DNA of 30,329 bases from a virus: positions 1 to 30,329 of the IMG/VR virus record IMGVR_UViG_3300031886_000023. The stretch is one strand, 5' to 3'. The notes under the pieces are model-generated. The model was not told the origin of the DNA. It searched no databases and saw only the letters and a program-made list of their open reading frames with translations. Below are positions 10,808 through 18,717 of this stretch, piece by piece. How positions within the stretch are numbered: the first letter of the stretch is position 1; the number at the start of each line of letters is the position of its first letter. Position numbers and translations under genes: made by a program.

Positions 10808-11635
10808 TTACCCACTTGCTGTCATTATCTCTTGGAAATTCAAATGCGGTAAATTCTCGGAGAAAAACCTTTCGGCATCCTCTATCCACTCCATGCATAA
10901 AGGGTTCGACCTAATACACATGTCCAGACTTGTGATATTAGTTGATGTCTTAATGTCTACCCCAACAGACTCGAGATCACTAAGATAGTAACCCACATGA
11001 CCCCATTTATATATTTTTGAATCTCCCTTTATTTCGTATAAAGGAGCATTTGATTCAGAACAATATGCCAGGGCAAGAGATTTAAATCTTGAAGACATAA
11101 TCCCATCTAAGCCGAAATCCGCTCCAATGTTTAGCCATATGTCGTAGTCAACCATTTCCATAACCTTGCGACCAATGCATCTGGCCATGCCTATGGTCTC
11201 GCCGGTTCGATCCTCATATATGTTTGGCTGGTAGCCCCTCCACCTTCCAAATCTTTCCGTAGGCACATCAAGTACATACATATCCTTAACGCCCATGAGT
11301 GCGTAATTCTCGTTTAACCGTTTTTTATATTCTAAGAGAAGATTGTCTGATATAAAATCATCCGATCCCAATATAATAACGGCATCAGCATCAATATCCT
11401 TCAGGGACTTAACTCCCGCATTCCATTTCTGACTAACCGGGTTATTGGGTGCTTCGACGTATTTCCATCCATTATCTTTTGAGATTTTTTCAGTAACTAA
11501 ACCCTCGGATCCTACAGCAACCAATTTTAAGTCTATTTGCCCCTCAAGCCTTTCCTTCATGTTGCTATAGTAAGAAAGAAAAATTTCCGTAAGAGCAGGC
11601 CTTTTCCACAAGGCTGTTAAAATAACCATTTTCAT
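10808..11635 (-). CDS. GT-A-like glycosyltransferase (possible 3' frameshift)
   Basis: A 275-residue protein with the start of a GT-A fold (MKMVILTALWKRPALTEIFL), a donor-binding region (PVSQKWNAGVKSLK) and a DxD-type metal/nucleotide-sugar motif in VIILGSDDFIS (residues 91-94). It is related to the second glycosyltransferase at 15998-16840, which has ILGSDDFLS and KWSDGVKYA in equivalent places. It likely transfers a sugar from a nucleotide-sugar donor in the cytoplasm. ATGA overlap joins it to the methyltransferase gene upstream. The -1 frame remains open from about 10866 to 10704 with protein-like sequence, so the true C-terminus may lie in that frame. Confidence 0.7.
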   Translation of the reverse strand: MKMVILTALWKRPALTEIFLSYYSNMKERLEGQIDLKLVAVGSEGLVTEKISKDNGWKYVEAPNNPVSQKWNAGVKSLKDIDADAVIILGSDDFISDNLLLEYKKRLNENYALMGVKDMYVLDVPTERFGRWRGYQPNIYEDRTGETIGMARCIGRKVMEMVDYDIWLNIGADFGLDGIMSSRFKSLALAYCSESNAPLYEIKGDSKIYKWGHVGYYLSDLESVGVDIKTSTNITSLDMCIRSNPLCMEWIEDAERFFSENLPHLNFQEIMTASG

Positions 11636-12231
11636 ATCTTTTTTATTTTTCCCACAATATACGAATCAATGTCCCTTACCTCTGCATTGCCCAATTGGCT
11701 AAACACTTTATACAACTCTTCCGGATCATGGTAATACCACTTCGAGTTATAATATGTTTTCGAGTCCGAGTCTTTATCAAATAAATTAGACTCATCCCAG
11801 CGGCCATAGGGTTTCTGCGTATATTGAATGTAGATTAATTCCTTTTTGCATAAGGAAAAAAGTTTTTGCATGTTTTCTTTAAAAAGAAGATTTTGAGGAG
11901 GTAGATTCAAACAAGAAATAGCCCTGCAAAAAATAATATCGAAACAGCCTCTCACTTCTAAAGCATCGCCACATATGAAATCAATATTTTTTGTTTTATA
12001 TTTTCTGCTTTTTTTGAGCGCCATTTTGATCCCTGAGTGAGATGTGTCGATACCTGTCACATTGAAGCGAGAAGATAACAAGAAGCTCCAGAATCCATCT
12101 CCGCAACCTGCGTCTAATAAAGATGCATCTTTTTCATATTTACCCTCGAAAACATTATCAAAAATCCATTCTTCAAGGTGTTCGGAATATCCAAAGCCTC
12201 CTTCTTCATAAAATTTATCGTAATTTTTCAC
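11632..12231 (-). CDS. SAM-dependent methyltransferase (class I)
   Basis: A 199-residue protein with motif I LLDAGCGDGFWS at residues 38-49, an acidic end of strand 2 in VTGIDTSHSG and a FICGDALEV motif before FDIIFCRAIS. This is the Rossmann-type order of small-molecule or sugar O-methyltransferases. Start is GTG at 12231, chosen because AAGGAG sits directly upstream at ideal spacing and because it overlaps the TGA of the sulfotransferase gene. Between a sulfotransferase and a glycosyltransferase, methylation of a sugar is the likely role. The substrate cannot be read from the sequence. Confidence 0.75.
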   Translation of the reverse strand: MKNYDKFYEEGGFGYSEHLEEWIFDNVFEGKYEKDASLLDAGCGDGFWSFLLSSRFNVTGIDTSHSGIKMALKKSRKYKTKNIDFICGDALEVRGCFDIIFCRAISCLNLPPQNLLFKENMQKLFSLCKKELIYIQYTQKPYGRWDESNLFDKDSDSKTYYNSKWYYHDPEELYKVFSQLGNAEVRDIDSYIVGKIKKI

Positions 12232-13010
12232 AATCTCCTTAATTTATTAAGCATCTTATATTTAATATAATATGAATCATCAAAAATATTACCGATGTCA
12301 TAGCGTTTTAATATCTCAATAAATTGGCCTCCCTCTTTTTTGTCTTCCAGGGAAACATTGGTTTTTATTTCGTTTGAATTTTTATCTAACGCCCCTTCAT
12401 GGAGATTATTTTCTAACTTATTTTGATCAATAGTCATACCAAAAAAAGCAAGCATTTCTTTTAATTTGCTTATATTATTAAGATCAGAAAAGTACATATC
12501 ATATGTCTTATCAAATTTAGATTTATAGTGATGAAACCGAATTTCATTTTCAAACCAATCCCATAAATTTTTCTGATACGAGGTTAAGCCCTCTGTGATT
12601 TTCAAAAAATTCTTTCGAGCCTCCATCGGTAAACGCCACACACAGTCAAGGGAGCCAGGAACAGAGTTTCGATTATTATAGCTTCTGGCGACTTGCAACG
12701 GATCACGAGTTAAGTGAATTACTCCCACCGGCAATCGCATTTCTTCTCCCAGCTCCAAAGCTTCCTCTACAAAACAGCGCAAAAATAATGGACTAGATTC
12801 AAAATATCTCCCATTTTTAATAGATTTTCTTATGGATTCCTTCTTTACTGAAAGAACTGCATTATCTTTATAGTTATTGCAGTCAATTAAAACTTTCCCG
12901 GTGCACTGAGGCTCAGGAACATGATAACCTTTTGTGTCCGAGATATGCGAAACTAATTTACTTAAATACGTAGTTCCACTTCTTCCTGTGCTAGATACAA
13001 AAATTAACAT
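12228..13010 (-). CDS. PAPS-dependent sulfotransferase
   Basis: A 260-residue protein starting MLIFVSSTGRSGTTYLSKLV. STGRSGTTYL (residues 7-16) is the 5'-phosphosulfate-binding loop, and VIHLTRDPLQVARSYNNR (from about residue 98) is the 3'-phosphate-binding segment, with Arg and Ser in the expected places. It should move sulfate from PAPS to a hydroxyl, probably on a carbohydrate given its neighbours. The ATG at 13010 is preferred over an upstream GTG at 13052, which lies inside the tmRNA-like RNA. The gene starts ten bases after the CCA end of that RNA. No Shine-Dalgarno site is seen. The DNA here is markedly AT-rich. Confidence 0.8.
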   Translation of the reverse strand: MLIFVSSTGRSGTTYLSKLVSHISDTKGYHVPEPQCTGKVLIDCNNYKDNAVLSVKKESIRKSIKNGRYFESSPLFLRCFVEEALELGEEMRLPVGVIHLTRDPLQVARSYNNRNSVPGSLDCVWRLPMEARKNFLKITEGLTSYQKNLWDWFENEIRFHHYKSKFDKTYDMYFSDLNNISKLKEMLAFFGMTIDQNKLENNLHEGALDKNSNEIKTNVSLEDKKEGGQFIEILKRYDIGNIFDDSYYIKYKMLNKLRRL

Positions 13011-13020
13011 GCCGCAAAAA

Positions 13021-13085
13021 TGGTGGAGACATGTGGAGTTGAACCACACCACGCAGCAATGCGCGTCAAATCCGTTTGTGTCCCC
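13021..13085 (-). ncRNA. Mini tmRNA-like RNA (tRNA-like domain without mRNA-like domain)
   Basis: The 65-nt minus-strand RNA folds as follows (nt from its 5' end). Acceptor stem 1-7/55-61 (GGGGACA / TGTCTCC) has a G3:U70-type wobble. A stemless D-loop region carries ACGGATTTGACG (12-22). A short hairpin lies at 20-24/31-35 (ACGCG/TGCGT). The T arm 38-54 has a TGTGG stem and a TTCAACT loop. Discriminator A62 and an encoded CCA complete it. The 5' GGGGAC, the GGATTTGAC D-loop, the G:U pair that specifies alanine charging and the TCTCCACCA 3' end are tmRNA hallmarks. The roughly 300 nt of tag and pseudoknots found in normal tmRNA is absent. It fills the gap between two sulfotransferase genes, six bases after one stop and ten before the next ATG. 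Confidence 0.8.
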
Positions 13086-13090
13086 ATTTA

Positions 13091-13837
13091 TTATTTGTTT
13101 GGCAAAAAGGTAAAACCACTATTCATTTGATTGTAACTTAAATTCATAGCATTAATTTTGTCGCCAACTTCTTTAAAATTATTAACACTATTCATCCATA
13201 TGAGACTTGTAACCTTGAGGGGTAAACTTTTTTTATTTATCTCAATTTTAGTAGACTGATTACTGTTGATGAACCTCATAATGCCAGAAACCTCTGTTTC
13301 TAGGTTATAACATAAATCTTCATAGAATACGTAATAACGCCTAGAAGGGGCTATTTTTTTATAAAAATTAAATAGTTTCTTGTTGCTCTCAAGAACGAAT
13401 TCCAAATTCTTCTCAAATTCTACCGGCGATATATAACAAGAGTTTAACTTCTCCGATTTGTTCCATGTGATAGAGCCCTTCGATATATCCTTCCTACATA
13501 AACCTACAGCATGAGACACCACGTCGTTGCGCAAACAAATAACAATTGGCACATTGCTATTTAAAAGTTTTTTCTCTAGCCCTAAGGAGACCTGATCATG
13601 AAGCTTTAATTTGGCACCAATCCACTTACAGTCCATAATGCGCTGAGTGGTCCTGCGTCTATATTTCGTATCATCATGTTTTTGCAATTTCAATAACAAC
13701 CCCTCGTCGTTGTTAAAGAAATCACACCCTAGAGATGGTTCTCTCAAGCATAATGTTCCGGGAATCTGATTAAGGGATTCGGCTAGAAAGCTACTTCCAC
13801 CCCCTCTTGTGAATAAGACTATAAAATTTCTTTTCAC
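13091..13837 (-). CDS. Sulfotransferase-like protein
   Basis: A 248-residue protein whose N-terminus IVLFTRGGGSSFLAESL matches the PAPS-binding P-loop (residues 9-18) with the Gly/Ser-rich form seen in divergent sulfotransferases. VPIVICLRNDVVSHAVGLCRKD (about residue 95 onward) matches the 3'-phosphate-binding segment, and YYVFYEDL is the following conserved strand. It starts with GTG at 13837; an upstream start is unlikely because the P-loop begins only eight residues in. It is a second, distant copy beside 12228-13010, with the tmRNA-like RNA between. The acceptor is unknown, but a polysaccharide or glycoprotein glycan is likely. Confidence 0.7.
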   Translation of the reverse strand: MKRNFIVLFTRGGGSSFLAESLNQIPGTLCLREPSLGCDFFNNDEGLLLKLQKHDDTKYRRRTTQRIMDCKWIGAKLKLHDQVSLGLEKKLLNSNVPIVICLRNDVVSHAVGLCRKDISKGSITWNKSEKLNSCYISPVEFEKNLEFVLESNKKLFNFYKKIAPSRRYYVFYEDLCYNLETEVSGIMRFINSNQSTKIEINKKSLPLKVTSLIWMNSVNNFKEVGDKINAMNLSYNQMNSGFTFLPNK

Positions 13838-13864
13838 CTTAAATTTCTGTCACAAAATAGTTTA

Positions 13865-14392
13865 TTATTTTTTTATGACAGCCCAGTAAACTCCGCTATG
13901 CTCCGCGCCTTCTCCCTTGAAATCACTTCTTTTTACAATGGATGATACATTAATATTTAAATTATGCAAGCTTGACAGATAGGAAGATATCTGGACTGTG
14001 TTTGTGATATCTATCCCCAAGGAATGCCAATGGTTTTTCGTAATCATGCAAAACATATACTTATTGGCGATATTGTAAAAATTTAGAAAGTGGTTTCTCA
14101 TAACCTTCGATTCTAATCCTGTAAATGGGTCACAACTAACCAAATCAAATTTCCTCCCTTCATCTGAAAACCGAATGGCTTCTTCGAAAGCGTCTCCGTG
14201 AATGTACTCCCACTGGGAACTATAGGTATTTTTCATTTCATTTAGTTTATCCTCAACAATATCGTTAAGAACAACATCCTTCATTTCTCGTTTGTGGGCG
14301 TATATCACATCATTCCGCCCCCCGAAAGCCGCACAAAAGAAAAAAACGGCACTTTGGCATTCGTCAAGTTCTGATTCTGGAAAAATACTCAT
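13865..14392 (-). CDS. Methyltransferase-like protein (degenerate)
   Basis: A 175-residue protein with the outline of a SAM-dependent methyltransferase: FFFCAAFGGRNDVIYAHKRE in place of motif I, a WEYIHGDAFEEA acidic segment, and FDLVSCDPFTGLESKVM resembling motif IV (DPP/DPF). The glycine-rich SAM loop is short and atypical (AAFGGRND), so activity is uncertain. The ATG at 14392 is preceded by AAGGAATTG. It lies between a GNAT-like gene and a sulfotransferase in the glycan island. The alternative is a non-catalytic Rossmann-fold protein. Confidence 0.5.
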   Translation of the reverse strand: MSIFPESELDECQSAVFFFCAAFGGRNDVIYAHKREMKDVVLNDIVEDKLNEMKNTYSSQWEYIHGDAFEEAIRFSDEGRKFDLVSCDPFTGLESKVMRNHFLNFYNIANKYMFCMITKNHWHSLGIDITNTVQISSYLSSLHNLNINVSSIVKRSDFKGEGAEHSGVYWAVIKK

Positions 14393-14409
14393 GGCAATTC
14401 CTTTGGTTT

Positions 14410-15138
14410 TTATAGTATATTTAAATAATAAGGTTTAAATAGAGTCCTTTTCTTCCACATTTTCAAACCATCCGTACCAGAGCAATGACTGCCATACATG
14501 ATATATTTTATTCCTCGAAAATCCGGAGTGTCTTTAGCTGAAACAAGATTTACTATAAACTCGTTCAATAAATACATTACGCCATTCTTTAAGTGATCAC
14601 AATGGCCCAATATTTGACCATATAAAGATATCTCTCCCATTCTTGTAAATGATATATATCCGCATAATTTGCAATCTAGTGATAGTTTACCTTGCTTATG
14701 ATTTTCCTGAGGGGAAAAAACCCCAAATAATTTATTATAATCAGTATTGGATATAAGCTCTGGAATCTCTGCCTCAACGGCAGGATAACCCCCCATTTCC
14801 TCAACGCTTTTTTGGTAACTGCTCGTCATTTTTCTCCCCTGCCTAATTTCGGAAGACAAATTGATATCCACTATATCGACAATATGATTTTGCCTTGCAA
14901 ACTCTTTGCAGTAATATTTCATTTTTTTTGCCTTGTTTGCATCTCTTACGGCATTCCCTTTATGAACTTTTCTCATCTGAGAAAGATATTCATCTATGGT
15001 CGAAGGGGTGGTCATTATCGCAGATTCTAGTTGTTGACCTTCTCTTGCCTTTCCTTCGCGACAAAAATATATGCCGTTTTTTTGAATGAAGGTTTTCGCT
15101 TGAGGGCCTTGCCCTATATTCACGTTTAAGATTTTCAC
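14410..15138 (-). CDS. GNAT-like acyltransferase, putative
   Basis: A 242-residue protein with start codon GTG at 15138. The C-terminal half (LDCKLCGYISFTRMGEISL, then GQILGHCDHLKNGVMYLLNEFIV and GIKYIMYGSHCSGTDGLKMWK) has the strand-helix pattern of GNAT-like acyltransferases, including the closing WKKRTLFKPYYL segment. The N-terminal half (MKILNVNIGQGPQAKTFIQKNG) does not match anything I know. An acetyl or aminoacyl transfer to a sugar would fit the surrounding glycosyltransferase and deacetylase genes. The family call is tentative because the acetyl-CoA loop is not clear. Confidence 0.4.
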   Translation of the reverse strand: MKILNVNIGQGPQAKTFIQKNGIYFCREGKAREGQQLESAIMTTPSTIDEYLSQMRKVHKGNAVRDANKAKKMKYYCKEFARQNHIVDIVDINLSSEIRQGRKMTSSYQKSVEEMGGYPAVEAEIPELISNTDYNKLFGVFSPQENHKQGKLSLDCKLCGYISFTRMGEISLYGQILGHCDHLKNGVMYLLNEFIVNLVSAKDTPDFRGIKYIMYGSHCSGTDGLKMWKKRTLFKPYYLNIL

Positions 15139-15146
15139 TCTAAAAT

Positions 15147-16001
15147 TTAAAGATTATTCTTCCACCAAATAGGGTGAACTAATATTTGCAAAATCTCCCC
15201 CTCTTTCATAAGCTCTGAGGATGTTTCAAGGGGATCGTTTATTGCATTAGGCAAATTTTCAAATTTGTCCGAACCGCAATAGCCCCCAGTCCAGAAGTTG
15301 CCCCCACTATCTGATAAATACCATTGTTTTTTAACAAAGTAAGATTCATACCTTAGGCCTTGAGACTCAAGGCTCATATACGGAACATTTAATGTTTTTG
15401 AATTCGGGCTTAACTCGATTGCATCTTTGTTTACCTCATCCCATATTTTATAATTTACATATTCGAGGGGATAAGGAATATTCCCCGTAGCCCCAACGAT
15501 AGATCTCATTGTTGATGATCCATGGGAAGCGCACCCAGAAATTTTTAAGCCGTTACTTCTGAAAACGGATAATATTTCCTCAGAACTTTCCTTGGGATCC
15601 TTTCCTAGGGAGAAATATTCTCCCAAAAAATCATAATGAAGCCCAACCTCGTGACCCATGCCCTGTATCTCTTGATACCATTCTATCATTTTCTTTCGAG
15701 CTTCTTCATCTATCCACCATCTCCTGGATGCATCTGCGGTAAGTGCAAAAAAAGTAGACCTAACCCCGGTTTCCTTTTCTACTCTAGCAAGATTTCGAGC
15801 AACTCCCGGATCATGATCCACATCATGCCTCATGATGATGTTCTTTTTGCCTTCTGTTTGAGTTGGATCTATATCAAATGGAAAGCCTTCTGTTTTTTTA
15901 AATGAGAAATCAGAAAATGGTCGAACATTTCCCTCTCCTGCGGCGCTCACCAGTTTTTCACAAAACTGCCTATATGTATATCCGGGATGCTTTGATGTCA
16001 T
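15147..16001 (-). CDS. Polysaccharide deacetylase-like (NodB fold) protein
   Basis: A 284-residue protein with the NodB-type metal motif IIMRHDVDHDPGVARNLARV (residues 56-75), a TFFALTADASRRW strand, and GMGHEVGLHYDFLGEY (from residue 115) supplying the paired histidines H117 and H122. This order is typical of the variant polysaccharide deacetylases in sugar-modification clusters, which remove N- or O-acetyl groups using a divalent metal. No signal peptide is present, so it would act in the cytoplasm, unlike cell-wall deacetylases. It overlaps the upstream glycosyltransferase gene by four bases. Confidence 0.7.
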   Translation of the reverse strand: MTSKHPGYTYRQFCEKLVSAAGEGNVRPFSDFSFKKTEGFPFDIDPTQTEGKKNIIMRHDVDHDPGVARNLARVEKETGVRSTFFALTADASRRWWIDEEARKKMIEWYQEIQGMGHEVGLHYDFLGEYFSLGKDPKESSEEILSVFRSNGLKISGCASHGSSTMRSIVGATGNIPYPLEYVNYKIWDEVNKDAIELSPNSKTLNVPYMSLESQGLRYESYFVKKQWYLSDSGGNFWTGGYCGSDKFENLPNAINDPLETSSELMKEGEILQILVHPIWWKNNL

Positions 16002-16840
16002 AATATTAAAAAAGAATTAGAGTTGCAATTAAAATGTTTTTTGAAATATTTTTCTTCATTTTTAATTTTTTCATATTTCATTTTATTTGATGATTTTAAA
16101 TTTTCGGAAGGATTCAATGTCAGCCAGTCACCCTTAAGCGACAAGACCGAGGTGTCATCATTTTCGATCATCTGATGGGTATTTCCACCATAAGCATAGG
16201 TATCGAAATAACCTTTTGAGTCCAAGTGATAATCAAAGATCCTTTCAAATATTTCCCAACTCAACAAATCGAGCATTCTTCTAGAATAAAATCTGCCTGC
16301 ACCCAATGGAATCGGCTGGGACGGAATTTGATTGAATTTATATAATTCATTTTTCTTATCGTAAGTCTCGTAAACATGCCAAGTTTTTGTTCCCACTGCA
16401 TCAACTCCTCCTCCTTTGACTAACTCGTTACAATACTCAAGATAGTTAAGAGACAGAAAATCATCCGACCCCAATATTGCCAGTCCTTTAAGATCGAATT
16501 TCTGAGCATACTTAACTCCATCCGACCATTTCCCTCCTAATGGGTAATTTTGAGAAAGGCATAAAAATACGTTTTCATATTTACCGAAAGCATCTTTTGC
16601 GAAATCAATATCCTCTTTATGACTCGCGACCAAAATGACGGCAGGCTTAAGGGTTTGCCGACATAACATATCCACCGTGGCCTTTAGAACATTATGCCTG
16701 GAACGAAAAGCTATTAAAACGCCGACTTCAAAATCCACAGAATGGGGGTCATTACTATAATCATAATTGCTTATCATTTCTTCGAAACGAACCCTTTCTG
16801 AAACGACGAGTTCTGGATTAGCTATCTTTTCCTGTATCAT
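15998..16840 (-). CDS. GT-A-like glycosyltransferase
   Basis: Counted from the ATG at 16840, which sits two bases after the terminase stop (TAAGAATG) and has AGGG upstream, this is a 280-residue protein. An in-frame start at 16888 would overlap the terminase and is less likely. EVGVLIAFRSRHNVLKATVDML begins the GT-A fold, PLGGKWSDGVKYAQ is the donor region, and LAILGSDDFLSLNYL carries the DxD-type motif (residues 125-128). It is a paralogue of the 10808-11635 enzyme. The two glycosyltransferases bracket the cargo island. It likely adds a sugar to a phage-specified glycan. Confidence 0.7.
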   Translation of the reverse strand: MIQEKIANPELVVSERVRFEEMISNYDYSNDPHSVDFEVGVLIAFRSRHNVLKATVDMLCRQTLKPAVILVASHKEDIDFAKDAFGKYENVFLCLSQNYPLGGKWSDGVKYAQKFDLKGLAILGSDDFLSLNYLEYCNELVKGGGVDAVGTKTWHVYETYDKKNELYKFNQIPSQPIPLGAGRFYSRRMLDLLSWEIFERIFDYHLDSKGYFDTYAYGGNTHQMIENDDTSVLSLKGDWLTLNPSENLKSSNKMKYEKIKNEEKYFKKHFNCNSNSFLIL

Positions 16841-16842
16841 TC

Positions 16843-18717
16843 TTACCCTATAAACATCGGCTGAAAAGTCGTTTGCCAATTCGTACAATCTACATTCATG
16901 TAATCATAATAAGTCTTAACCATCCAATTTCCAAGAACAATTGCAGAATATGAATCCTTCCTTGCTTTATGAGGCCCGGAGGTTCTCTTCAATACATCAG
17001 GCAAGTCAAAACTTTGATGGCCTTGTGGTGTGGTTTTAATCTGAATTAAAGCGCACTCTGTTTTAGTCAAATTCACCATGTCGTATTGATGCTCAACAAA
17101 ATCAATCATCTTTGCTGCTGCAGACTCTTTTTCGTCCTGCTCTACGAAATTTGCAAATTTAAGGTTTTTTATGGGTATCTTCTTTTTTATTTCCGCCGTA
17201 TAATAATCATCAATTGGCCTACTGCCGAATGCAATTTTCTTATGGTCGAAACTAGCTTGTAGTAATTCATTTGCCCTACGAATCCATTGGCTGGTGGGCT
17301 TTCTTAATATACAAATCTTTTTCGAGTCCAAGTCATACTCTCTTCTGGCTTTTCTTAAATCGTTTTCATACTCCTCGGGTTTATCAAAATCAGCAGTGAT
17401 AAAATCTATCTTTATGTTGGAATCCTTAAACTTCTTACTCTCATTCACAGCATTTAAAAATTGAACCCCTCCGTTATAATCCCCCACTATAGAAACAATA
17501 TTAAAATACTTTATCAAGTAGTGAAAGTAATTTATATGTTGCTTTAAGGAAGTTCCCGCCAACGCATACGAATGAACTAATGTTCCCATCTGTTTTTCGT
17601 CATGTAGTTTAAATACATGCATCGCAAAATTATCAGAGCTTTCTGATTCCGCCCAACTTGGGTCAAAAGCCAAGAGGTATTTGTCCTTGGGGTTACCCGC
17701 CACTTCCATGGAAGGCTCCATTCCGTCTTGAACCGTACATGCAGCCATTCTGGAGTTCTTGAAATACCCACTGCTGTCATCAGTAAATAAAGAACCGAAT
17801 TCTCTATCGAACTGACTTTGGGACATCGTGGATTTCGATTGTTCTATCAAGTTCGAGTCGTATAGTTTTTCGGGAGCGCAATCGTAACTAAAGTGCATAA
17901 TGCATCTCGTCGCATCGCTATTTTCTCCTTCGGTGTCTTTTCCCGTTATTAGATTATCAAATTTTTCGTATACTTTGTAGAGGTACTCAAATTTATATGA
18001 AGCCGATGACAAAGCTATTAGCTTGTTGTGAGGCCATTTATAGCGATCCTCCTCATTCATTTTGCCTTCGTTAATTAATTTGGTTTCTAGATCGTGCATC
18101 CGTTGCTGTTCCATGGGGTTCTCCACGACGGACAAGAACGGAACTATAACTTCGTTATAGATCGATTCCGGCATCAACAGGAACTCATCGATGATTATCC
18201 TATGGAAACGAAAACCACGCAGCTTGGAGCCATCGCCTAACGGCAATGCCCGTATGCGTGAGGAGCCTATTTCCATAAGCCATTCGTCGTTGCTTTTGGA
18301 TTTATGGGTTATGCATTGACCCAGCATCTTTGCCTCCGGCTTCGCGGCAATATCTTCAATCTTCTTGAAGATGAGTTTCGATTGTCTAAAGGATTTACTC
18401 AGGATACCGATCTCAACTCCTTGGTTTAATATCGCATCAAGAAATGCGAAAATTCCGGTAGTAAAGGATTTCGATAAACCCCGACTCCATATACCAAGGA
18501 AGTAATCGGTCTTCATCATTCCCTTGATGGCCATATGTTGAAATGGGAAAAGATCCACTCCGGATAACAGGCTTACCGCGAAAGTAGTGTTTTCCCTTAA
18601 GAACTTATATAACAAAATTCGGGCTTCTTCTTCGTCTACGACGCCCTCTATTTCGCTAAGCTCCTTATTGTAGTCAGGGTATTTTTGTCTAAGTTGTGAT
18701 CCTATCTCCCAAGTCAT
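16843..18717 (-). CDS. Terminase large subunit
   Basis: A 624-residue packaging motor ATPase and nuclease. A Walker A-like SRGLSKSF lies at residues 78-85, Walker B RIIIDE at 173-178, and the nuclease acidic residues lie in LLAFDPSWAES (D352), IVGDYNGG (D413) and ARKDSYSAIVLGN near the C-terminus. FPFQHMAIKGMM before Walker A is the adenine-binding region. Length is typical. It binds the portal, pumps DNA into the prohead and cuts the concatemer. Its start overlaps the ERCC4-type nuclease gene by 29 bases. Confidence 0.92.
   Translation of the reverse strand: MTWEIGSQLRQKYPDYNKELSEIEGVVDEEEARILLYKFLRENTTFAVSLLSGVDLFPFQHMAIKGMMKTDYFLGIWSRGLSKSFTTGIFAFLDAILNQGVEIGILSKSFRQSKLIFKKIEDIAAKPEAKMLGQCITHKSKSNDEWLMEIGSSRIRALPLGDGSKLRGFRFHRIIIDEFLLMPESIYNEVIVPFLSVVENPMEQQRMHDLETKLINEGKMNEEDRYKWPHNKLIALSSASYKFEYLYKVYEKFDNLITGKDTEGENSDATRCIMHFSYDCAPEKLYDSNLIEQSKSTMSQSQFDREFGSLFTDDSSGYFKNSRMAACTVQDGMEPSMEVAGNPKDKYLLAFDPSWAESESSDNFAMHVFKLHDEKQMGTLVHSYALAGTSLKQHINYFHYLIKYFNIVSIVGDYNGGVQFLNAVNESKKFKDSNIKIDFITADFDKPEEYENDLRKARREYDLDSKKICILRKPTSQWIRRANELLQASFDHKKIAFGSRPIDDYYTAEIKKKIPIKNLKFANFVEQDEKESAAAKMIDFVEHQYDMVNLTKTECALIQIKTTPQGHQSFDLPDVLKRTSGPHKARKDSYSAIVLGNWMVKTYYDYMNVDCTNWQTTFQPMFIG

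Follow-up and report, generated by a model that had tools for sequence, protein, structure and literature searches.

The Mycobacterium phage DS6A encodes a tmRNA that is entered as 'TLD only' (tRNA-like domain only) by Hudson, Lau & Williams (2014, PMC4131195), and this seems to be the one phage example of such an RNA described before. A passage of the same paper describes strong inhibition of tmRNA by a molecule similar to the DS6A form, whether or not that molecule was chargeable, 'perhaps acting by titrating SmpB'. According to a passage of Nawrocki, Petrov & Williams (2025, PMC11915505), too, the DS6A form acts in E. coli as an inhibitor of the endogenous tmRNA. The tmRNA database presented in that paper comprises 97,179 sequences, of which 79 are entries from phages and 9 are one-piece forms lacking a coding region; DS6A is given there as the phage example without a coding region. 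The main search behind the database combined ARAGORN with BLAST, because covariance-model matches are mostly tRNAs (PMC11915505). Coding regions have also been lost from the CDS-less plastid tmRNAs of Mallomonadaceae, which at about 65 bp have the same size as the RNA described here (PMC11915505), and from tagless mitochondrial tmRNAs, which are usually permuted; both are organellar and do not occur in a phage context. Complete phage tmRNAs, such as those of Streptomyces phage Riptide and Mycobacterium phage Phabba, are phage-borne ssrA homologues that are often located in tRNA arrays and, in contrast to the short forms, keep the tag frame.

The locus analyzed here is found in an IMG/VR virus record of 30,329 bases (IMGVR_UViG_3300031886_000023), hereafter the window, in which a terminase large subunit gene and a PhoH gene are present. 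The RNA is encoded on the minus strand from 13085 to 13021 and has the sequence GGGGACACAAACGGATTTGACGCGCATTGCTGCGTGGTGTGGTTCAACTCCACATGTCTCCACCA, in which RNA position p corresponds to window coordinate 13086-p. Its parts and its neighbors are as follows.

12228..13010, minus strand: sulfotransferase gene, downstream neighbor, likely start ATG 13010 (Sulfotransfer_1, E 1.1e-6)
13021..13085, minus strand: TLD-only mini-tmRNA, 65 nt (end-to-end match to RF00023; leave-out model R2; conserved in the related contig L076)
13021..13024, minus strand: discriminator A73 and encoded CCA
13025..13031, minus strand: 3' strand of the acceptor stem, TGTCTCC, with U70 at 13027; pairs with GGGGACA
13032..13048, minus strand: T arm, TGTGG-TTCAACT-CCACA, with a 5-bp stem (T loop of the class, TTCRAYT)
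13050..13065, minus strand: P2 hairpin, CGCGCA-TTGC-TGCGTG, 6 bp, standing in for the mRNA-like domain and pseudoknots
13065..13073, minus strand: tmRNA D-loop motif GGATTTGAC (motif family G[TA]TT[CT]GAC)
13079..13085, minus strand: 5' strand of the acceptor stem, GGGGACA, with G3 at 13083; 7/7 pairs with 13025..13031
13091..13837, minus strand: weak sulfotransferase-like gene, upstream neighbor (Sulfotransfer_1, E 0.0021, below cut-off)

The RNA starts 5 nt past the stop of the upstream gene and ends 10 nt ahead of ATG 13010. An earlier sequence-only reading placed it in the gap between two sulfotransferase genes, and it does lie there, although the upstream match is weak and the fill is not exact as had been claimed: the RNA occupies 65 of 80 nt if the downstream gene starts at ATG 13010, which is probable. 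No promoter or terminator was found beside it.

With canonical one-piece tmRNA (ssrA, RF00023), the window RNA shares the G3·U70 acceptor stem, the stemless D loop GGNTTCGAC, the T arm, A73, and the start of P2. In contrast to canonical tmRNA, it has no tag frame or pseudoknots, its P2 is closed by a short hairpin, and it is 65 nt long rather than about 350, which is too small for a tag reading frame with a resume codon and stop. The D region consists of GGATTTGAC without a D stem, and both the D stem and the anticodon arm of a canonical tRNA are absent. The sequence, coordinates, and every element named in the sequence-only reading, which described a mini tmRNA with both tRNA-like ends and no mRNA-like domain, were thus recovered, as were the determinants that it assigned to alanine charging and SmpB-type binding.

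Scoring with Rfam covariance models, which that reading proposed as a check, gave a divided result. The tmRNA model RF00023 (positions 1-374) aligns 13021-13085 end to end with its middle deleted, but the score of 29 bits is below the cut-off of 47 bits, and tRNA-length sequences elsewhere reach 26-37 bits, equal to or above the window RNA. The RF00023 score alone is therefore non-discriminating, and reliance on it was dropped. For this reason a model, R2, was built from 14 other short forms, with the window RNA and its relative in L076 left out. R2 scores the window RNA, over its full length, at 41.0 bits and L076 at 34.7 bits. In 21 control loci, including several rich in tRNAs, the best tRNA or full tmRNA scored 33.1 bits, so that the margin of L076 is small. 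At the window RNA, ARAGORN and Rfam at gathering thresholds reported nothing.

The minimum-energy fold of the single window sequence is a different structure (-24.7 kcal/mol, versus -22.3 for the tmRNA fold). Minimum-energy folding was consequently discarded as proof, and the tmRNA fold rests on homology and covariation. A loose detector found exactly one match in the real window, the mini-tmRNA, and one match in 9.1 Mb of dinucleotide-resampled windows; this rate, together with the covariation of the class described below, rules out a chance structure. The assignment of the window RNA as the tRNA-like domain of tmRNA without its mRNA-like domain is well supported by these sequence comparisons, by which it is a new member of the kind described from one phage. 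The statement of the sequence-only reading that no described phage tmRNA lacks the whole mRNA-like domain does not hold, given the DS6A entry (PMC4131195). Both RNAs are phage-encoded and have little beyond the tRNA-like domain, with both tRNA-like ends and no tag frame in the window RNA. The difference is that DS6A, compared here by its description, is treated as a single phage case in the literature found, whereas the RNAs reported here form a broad class.

Two pattern scans of viral contigs followed by a structural filter yielded at least 106 distinct sequences. Search criteria were the D motif, a starting GG, and a large part of the T arm; G3·U70 and A73 were not required. Class members come in a short form of 63-72 nt and a long one of 78-89 nt. 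In the latter, a P2 of about 7 bp is followed by an A-rich internal loop and a small hairpin cap (for example, CCG-CAYG-CGG), after which come GGAC and the T arm. The GGAC preceding the T arm is a feature of canonical tmRNA that most long forms keep, and the window RNA, which has no GGA(C) spacer there, is atypical within the class.

In an alignment of 102 members, paired cells make up 94.3%, a share that drops to 39-52% in slid controls. The covariation score is 0.682, versus 0.136 after shuffling (0/500 shuffles). Because this alignment was fitted to the structure and the search fixed the elements named above, fair evidence of covariation comes from the P2 and inner acceptor columns. All seven P2 pairs have two-sided changes in this alignment (helix 2 of A4, 7/7 pairs), and acceptor pairs 4-7 vary among four or five pair types across the 106 members. 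By comparison with these variable pairs, G1-C72, G2-C71, G3·U70, and A73 are present in 106/106. A D motif of the family G[TA]TT[CT]GAC occurs in 105/106, although the search itself demanded such a motif. The invariance of G3·U70 and A73 implies, at the level of sequence, that charging is under selection. CCA is encoded in 32/106 members, and CCA-adding hosts would have to finish the others; directly after A73, about 90% of members have a C. The class was also checked for a hidden tag frame, a possibility that was rejected because an Ala-started frame with a stop occurs in 21/106 members, versus 52 expected by shuffling.

The RNA is conserved beyond its flanks, with the same or nearly the same RNA in unrelated surroundings: the L174 and L282 RNAs are 100% identical with flanks of 49-64% identity, and those of L184 and L224 are 99% identical with flanks of 56-71%. 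Of 28 records tested with RF00023, 23 score above its cut-off. ARAGORN almost never reports class members. No SmpB gene was found in 28 phage records.

Cultured carriers include the Streptomyces phages LuckySocke, GiJojo (a BLAST match only, 97.5% identity), Alone3 (with an altered D motif), pSt2308, and BRock, and, outside this group, Stenotrophomonas virus Jojan60 and Pontimonas phage phiPsal1. The records of LuckySocke, Alone3, pSt2308, BRock, and phiPsal1 have no feature annotated at the mini-tmRNA site, and those of GiJojo and Jojan60 have hypothetical proteins there and no RNA. The class is nearly restricted to phages, with hardly any members in bacterial genomes: one pattern has at least 120 matches in viral contigs versus 22 in the genomes of 84,980 species, and only four of these 22 are minis. 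The assemblies containing those four also hold a full-length tmRNA. Settings differ among class members, which occur in tRNA arrays or beside a major capsid gene; because 76 of the 106 loci have no tRNA on the available stretch, the mini-tmRNA is not merely a passenger of tRNA arrays. The breadth of the class, its restriction to phages, and its conserved charging signal appear to be new, with no report of them in the literature searched.

Several further loci resemble the class. The Streptomyces phages Riptide (L292, 676-752) and Tomas (L279, 976-1053) each have a mini with a changed D motif (GGTTAGATA and GGTGTGATA) and with the C-G pair that opens P2 replaced by A-T, and both genomes encode a complete tmRNA as well as the mini. 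A mini-tmRNA with the D motif GGCTTCGAC is located on a 27-kb plasmid of Pseudonocardia broussonetiae (L316, 5001-5081), which bears a tyrosine integrase and is perhaps a phage-plasmid. Another is found near tRNA genes and phage-like genes on a 472 kb contig of Cellulosimicrobium cellulans (L310, 568-646), possibly a large phage or prophage. In Microbacterium phage Skylord (L286, 1938-2029), a 90-nt mini-like RNA with a G3·U70 acceptor, a T arm, and a diverged D region sits just upstream of tRNA-Asn. Matches in Synechococcus genomes were rejected as acceptor pieces of permuted host tmRNA. Those in Pseudomonas SM1, Stenotrophomonas Marzo, and Mycobacterium Phabba were set aside too, since they appeared to belong to longer or full tmRNAs.

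The closest relative of the window RNA is located at 14856-14920 of contig L076. This contig matches much of the window at about 95% identity but lacks the sulfotransferase genes that lie on either side of the window RNA. Of the 65 positions, 11 are substituted between the two RNAs; 6 of these substitutions fall in stems, yet every one of the 18 pairs remains intact, an outcome with a probability of about 0.01 under random substitution. Compensatory changes convert A7-U66 in the window RNA to G7-C66 in L076, and A26-U31 to U·G; P2 retains 6/6 pairs through one- and two-sided changes. The expectation that related phages would carry copies with compensatory changes is therefore borne out, both in L076 and in the alignment of the class. 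The L076 RNA has GGC in place of GAC, and together with the missing GGA(C) spacer this could mean that the lineage is partly degenerate.

Two members of this sublineage were found, the window RNA and that of L076, and a pattern search with the 5' end matched only the L076 contig. A similarity search of the window region among cultured phages gave no relative of the RNA, an exact 22-mer search gave nothing, and no relatives were found with the sulfotransferase as bait. No mini-tmRNA was found in the terminase relatives L077-L155, so the RNA is an accessory element in this lineage. The genes at window positions 10810-16843, a sulfotransferase and a methyltransferase among them, make up an accessory region; most of it is replaced in L077 and L078, which are near-identical relatives, and part of it in L076.

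Judged from its sequence determinants, the TLD-only tmRNA is fairly likely to act as an alanine-chargeable decoy that competes for SmpB, EF-Tu, and stalled ribosomes. This is the best supported of the functions that the sequence-only reading suggested, and the DS6A form is a precedent for it in a passage of PMC11915505. Host tRNA-processing enzymes would probably cut the RNA out of the phage operon transcript, host AlaRS would charge it with alanine by way of G3·U70, and host SmpB and EF-Tu would bind it through the determinants present. The SmpB used is presumably that of the host, because the 28 phage records have none. The mini-tmRNA would then compete with the full tmRNA of the host at SmpB and stalled ribosomes, dampening trans-translation during infection; a full-length tmRNA is available to compete with in the four mini-bearing host assemblies, since each holds one. 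The inhibition experiment with the DS6A form was reportedly that of Mao et al. in 2009.

Simple titration of SmpB fits the invariant charging signal poorly. An inhibitor that works charged or uncharged, as a passage of PMC4131195 describes, leaves the invariance of G3·U70 unexplained by titration alone. Since no member has lost the alanine identity pair, the charged RNA probably goes into stalled ribosomes, which it would block or release untagged, in addition to soaking up SmpB. More tentatively, phages of very different bacteria may share TLD-only tmRNAs that require alanine charging and that act on stalled ribosomes, countering or diverting host rescue rather than serving as passive SmpB sponges. 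No later work on the inhibition of trans-translation by phages came up in a literature search.

A tagless form of rescue is a less probable explanation of the same charging signal. The alanyl mini-tmRNA, with SmpB and EF-Tu, would enter a stalled ribosome and take the nascent chain, release would occur by another route, and truncated phage proteins would escape proteolysis. The complete conservation of G3·U70 and A73 implies selection for charging, whereas titration of SmpB alone should work without it (PMC4131195), and tagless mitochondrial tmRNAs are thought still to be useful on incomplete mRNAs (PMC11915505). However, the sole tested form, that of DS6A, inhibits tmRNA in E. coli in the account given in a passage of PMC11915505, and another factor would be needed for release without a stop codon.

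It is improbable that the RNA is merely an RNase P or RNase Z processing signal that splits the transcript between the two sulfotransferase genes. Its tight intergenic position, where neither a promoter nor a terminator was found next to it, is consistent with such a role, as is the fact that tRNA-like structures get processed. Nonetheless, a cleavage signal needs neither G3·U70 nor the tmRNA D motif nor a covarying P2, the L076 RNA separates different genes, and other class members lie in tRNA arrays or beside a major capsid gene.

Still less probable is an origin from a host ssrA gene, whether as an attachment site or as a relic, through integration or through loss of the mRNA-like domain. 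The ssrA gene is a common integration site, and Gordonia phage Yeezy and Mycobacterium phage Shandong1 carry the 3' end of a tmRNA beside an integrase; however, neither locus gave a complete mini with a 5' end in the detector scan. None of the scanned window ORFs was recognized as an integrase, class members possess both ends together with a covarying P2 that is foreign to host sequence, and the RNA is better conserved than its flanks. The covariation, the invariant G3·U70, and the D motif thus weigh against both the processing signal and the relic that the sequence-only reading had offered as alternatives. An ordinary tRNA that degenerated by losing its anticodon arm is the least probable of all, for although tRNA-length sequences score 26-37 bits with RF00023, the window RNA has the tmRNA motif and no D stem, ARAGORN and the Rfam tRNA model are silent on it, and R2 ranks it above all control tRNAs.

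What appeared to be an oddity belongs to a common class of phage RNAs, which has at least 106 distinct members and is hardly ever reported by ARAGORN. Cultured phages carrying the mini-tmRNA gene exist and are open to laboratory work, and two questions become testable: whether phages routinely manipulate trans-translation, and why alanine charging is conserved if the known inhibition can do without it. The presence of more than 100 versions in phage DNA suggests that many phages interfere with the bacterial rescue of stalled ribosomes.
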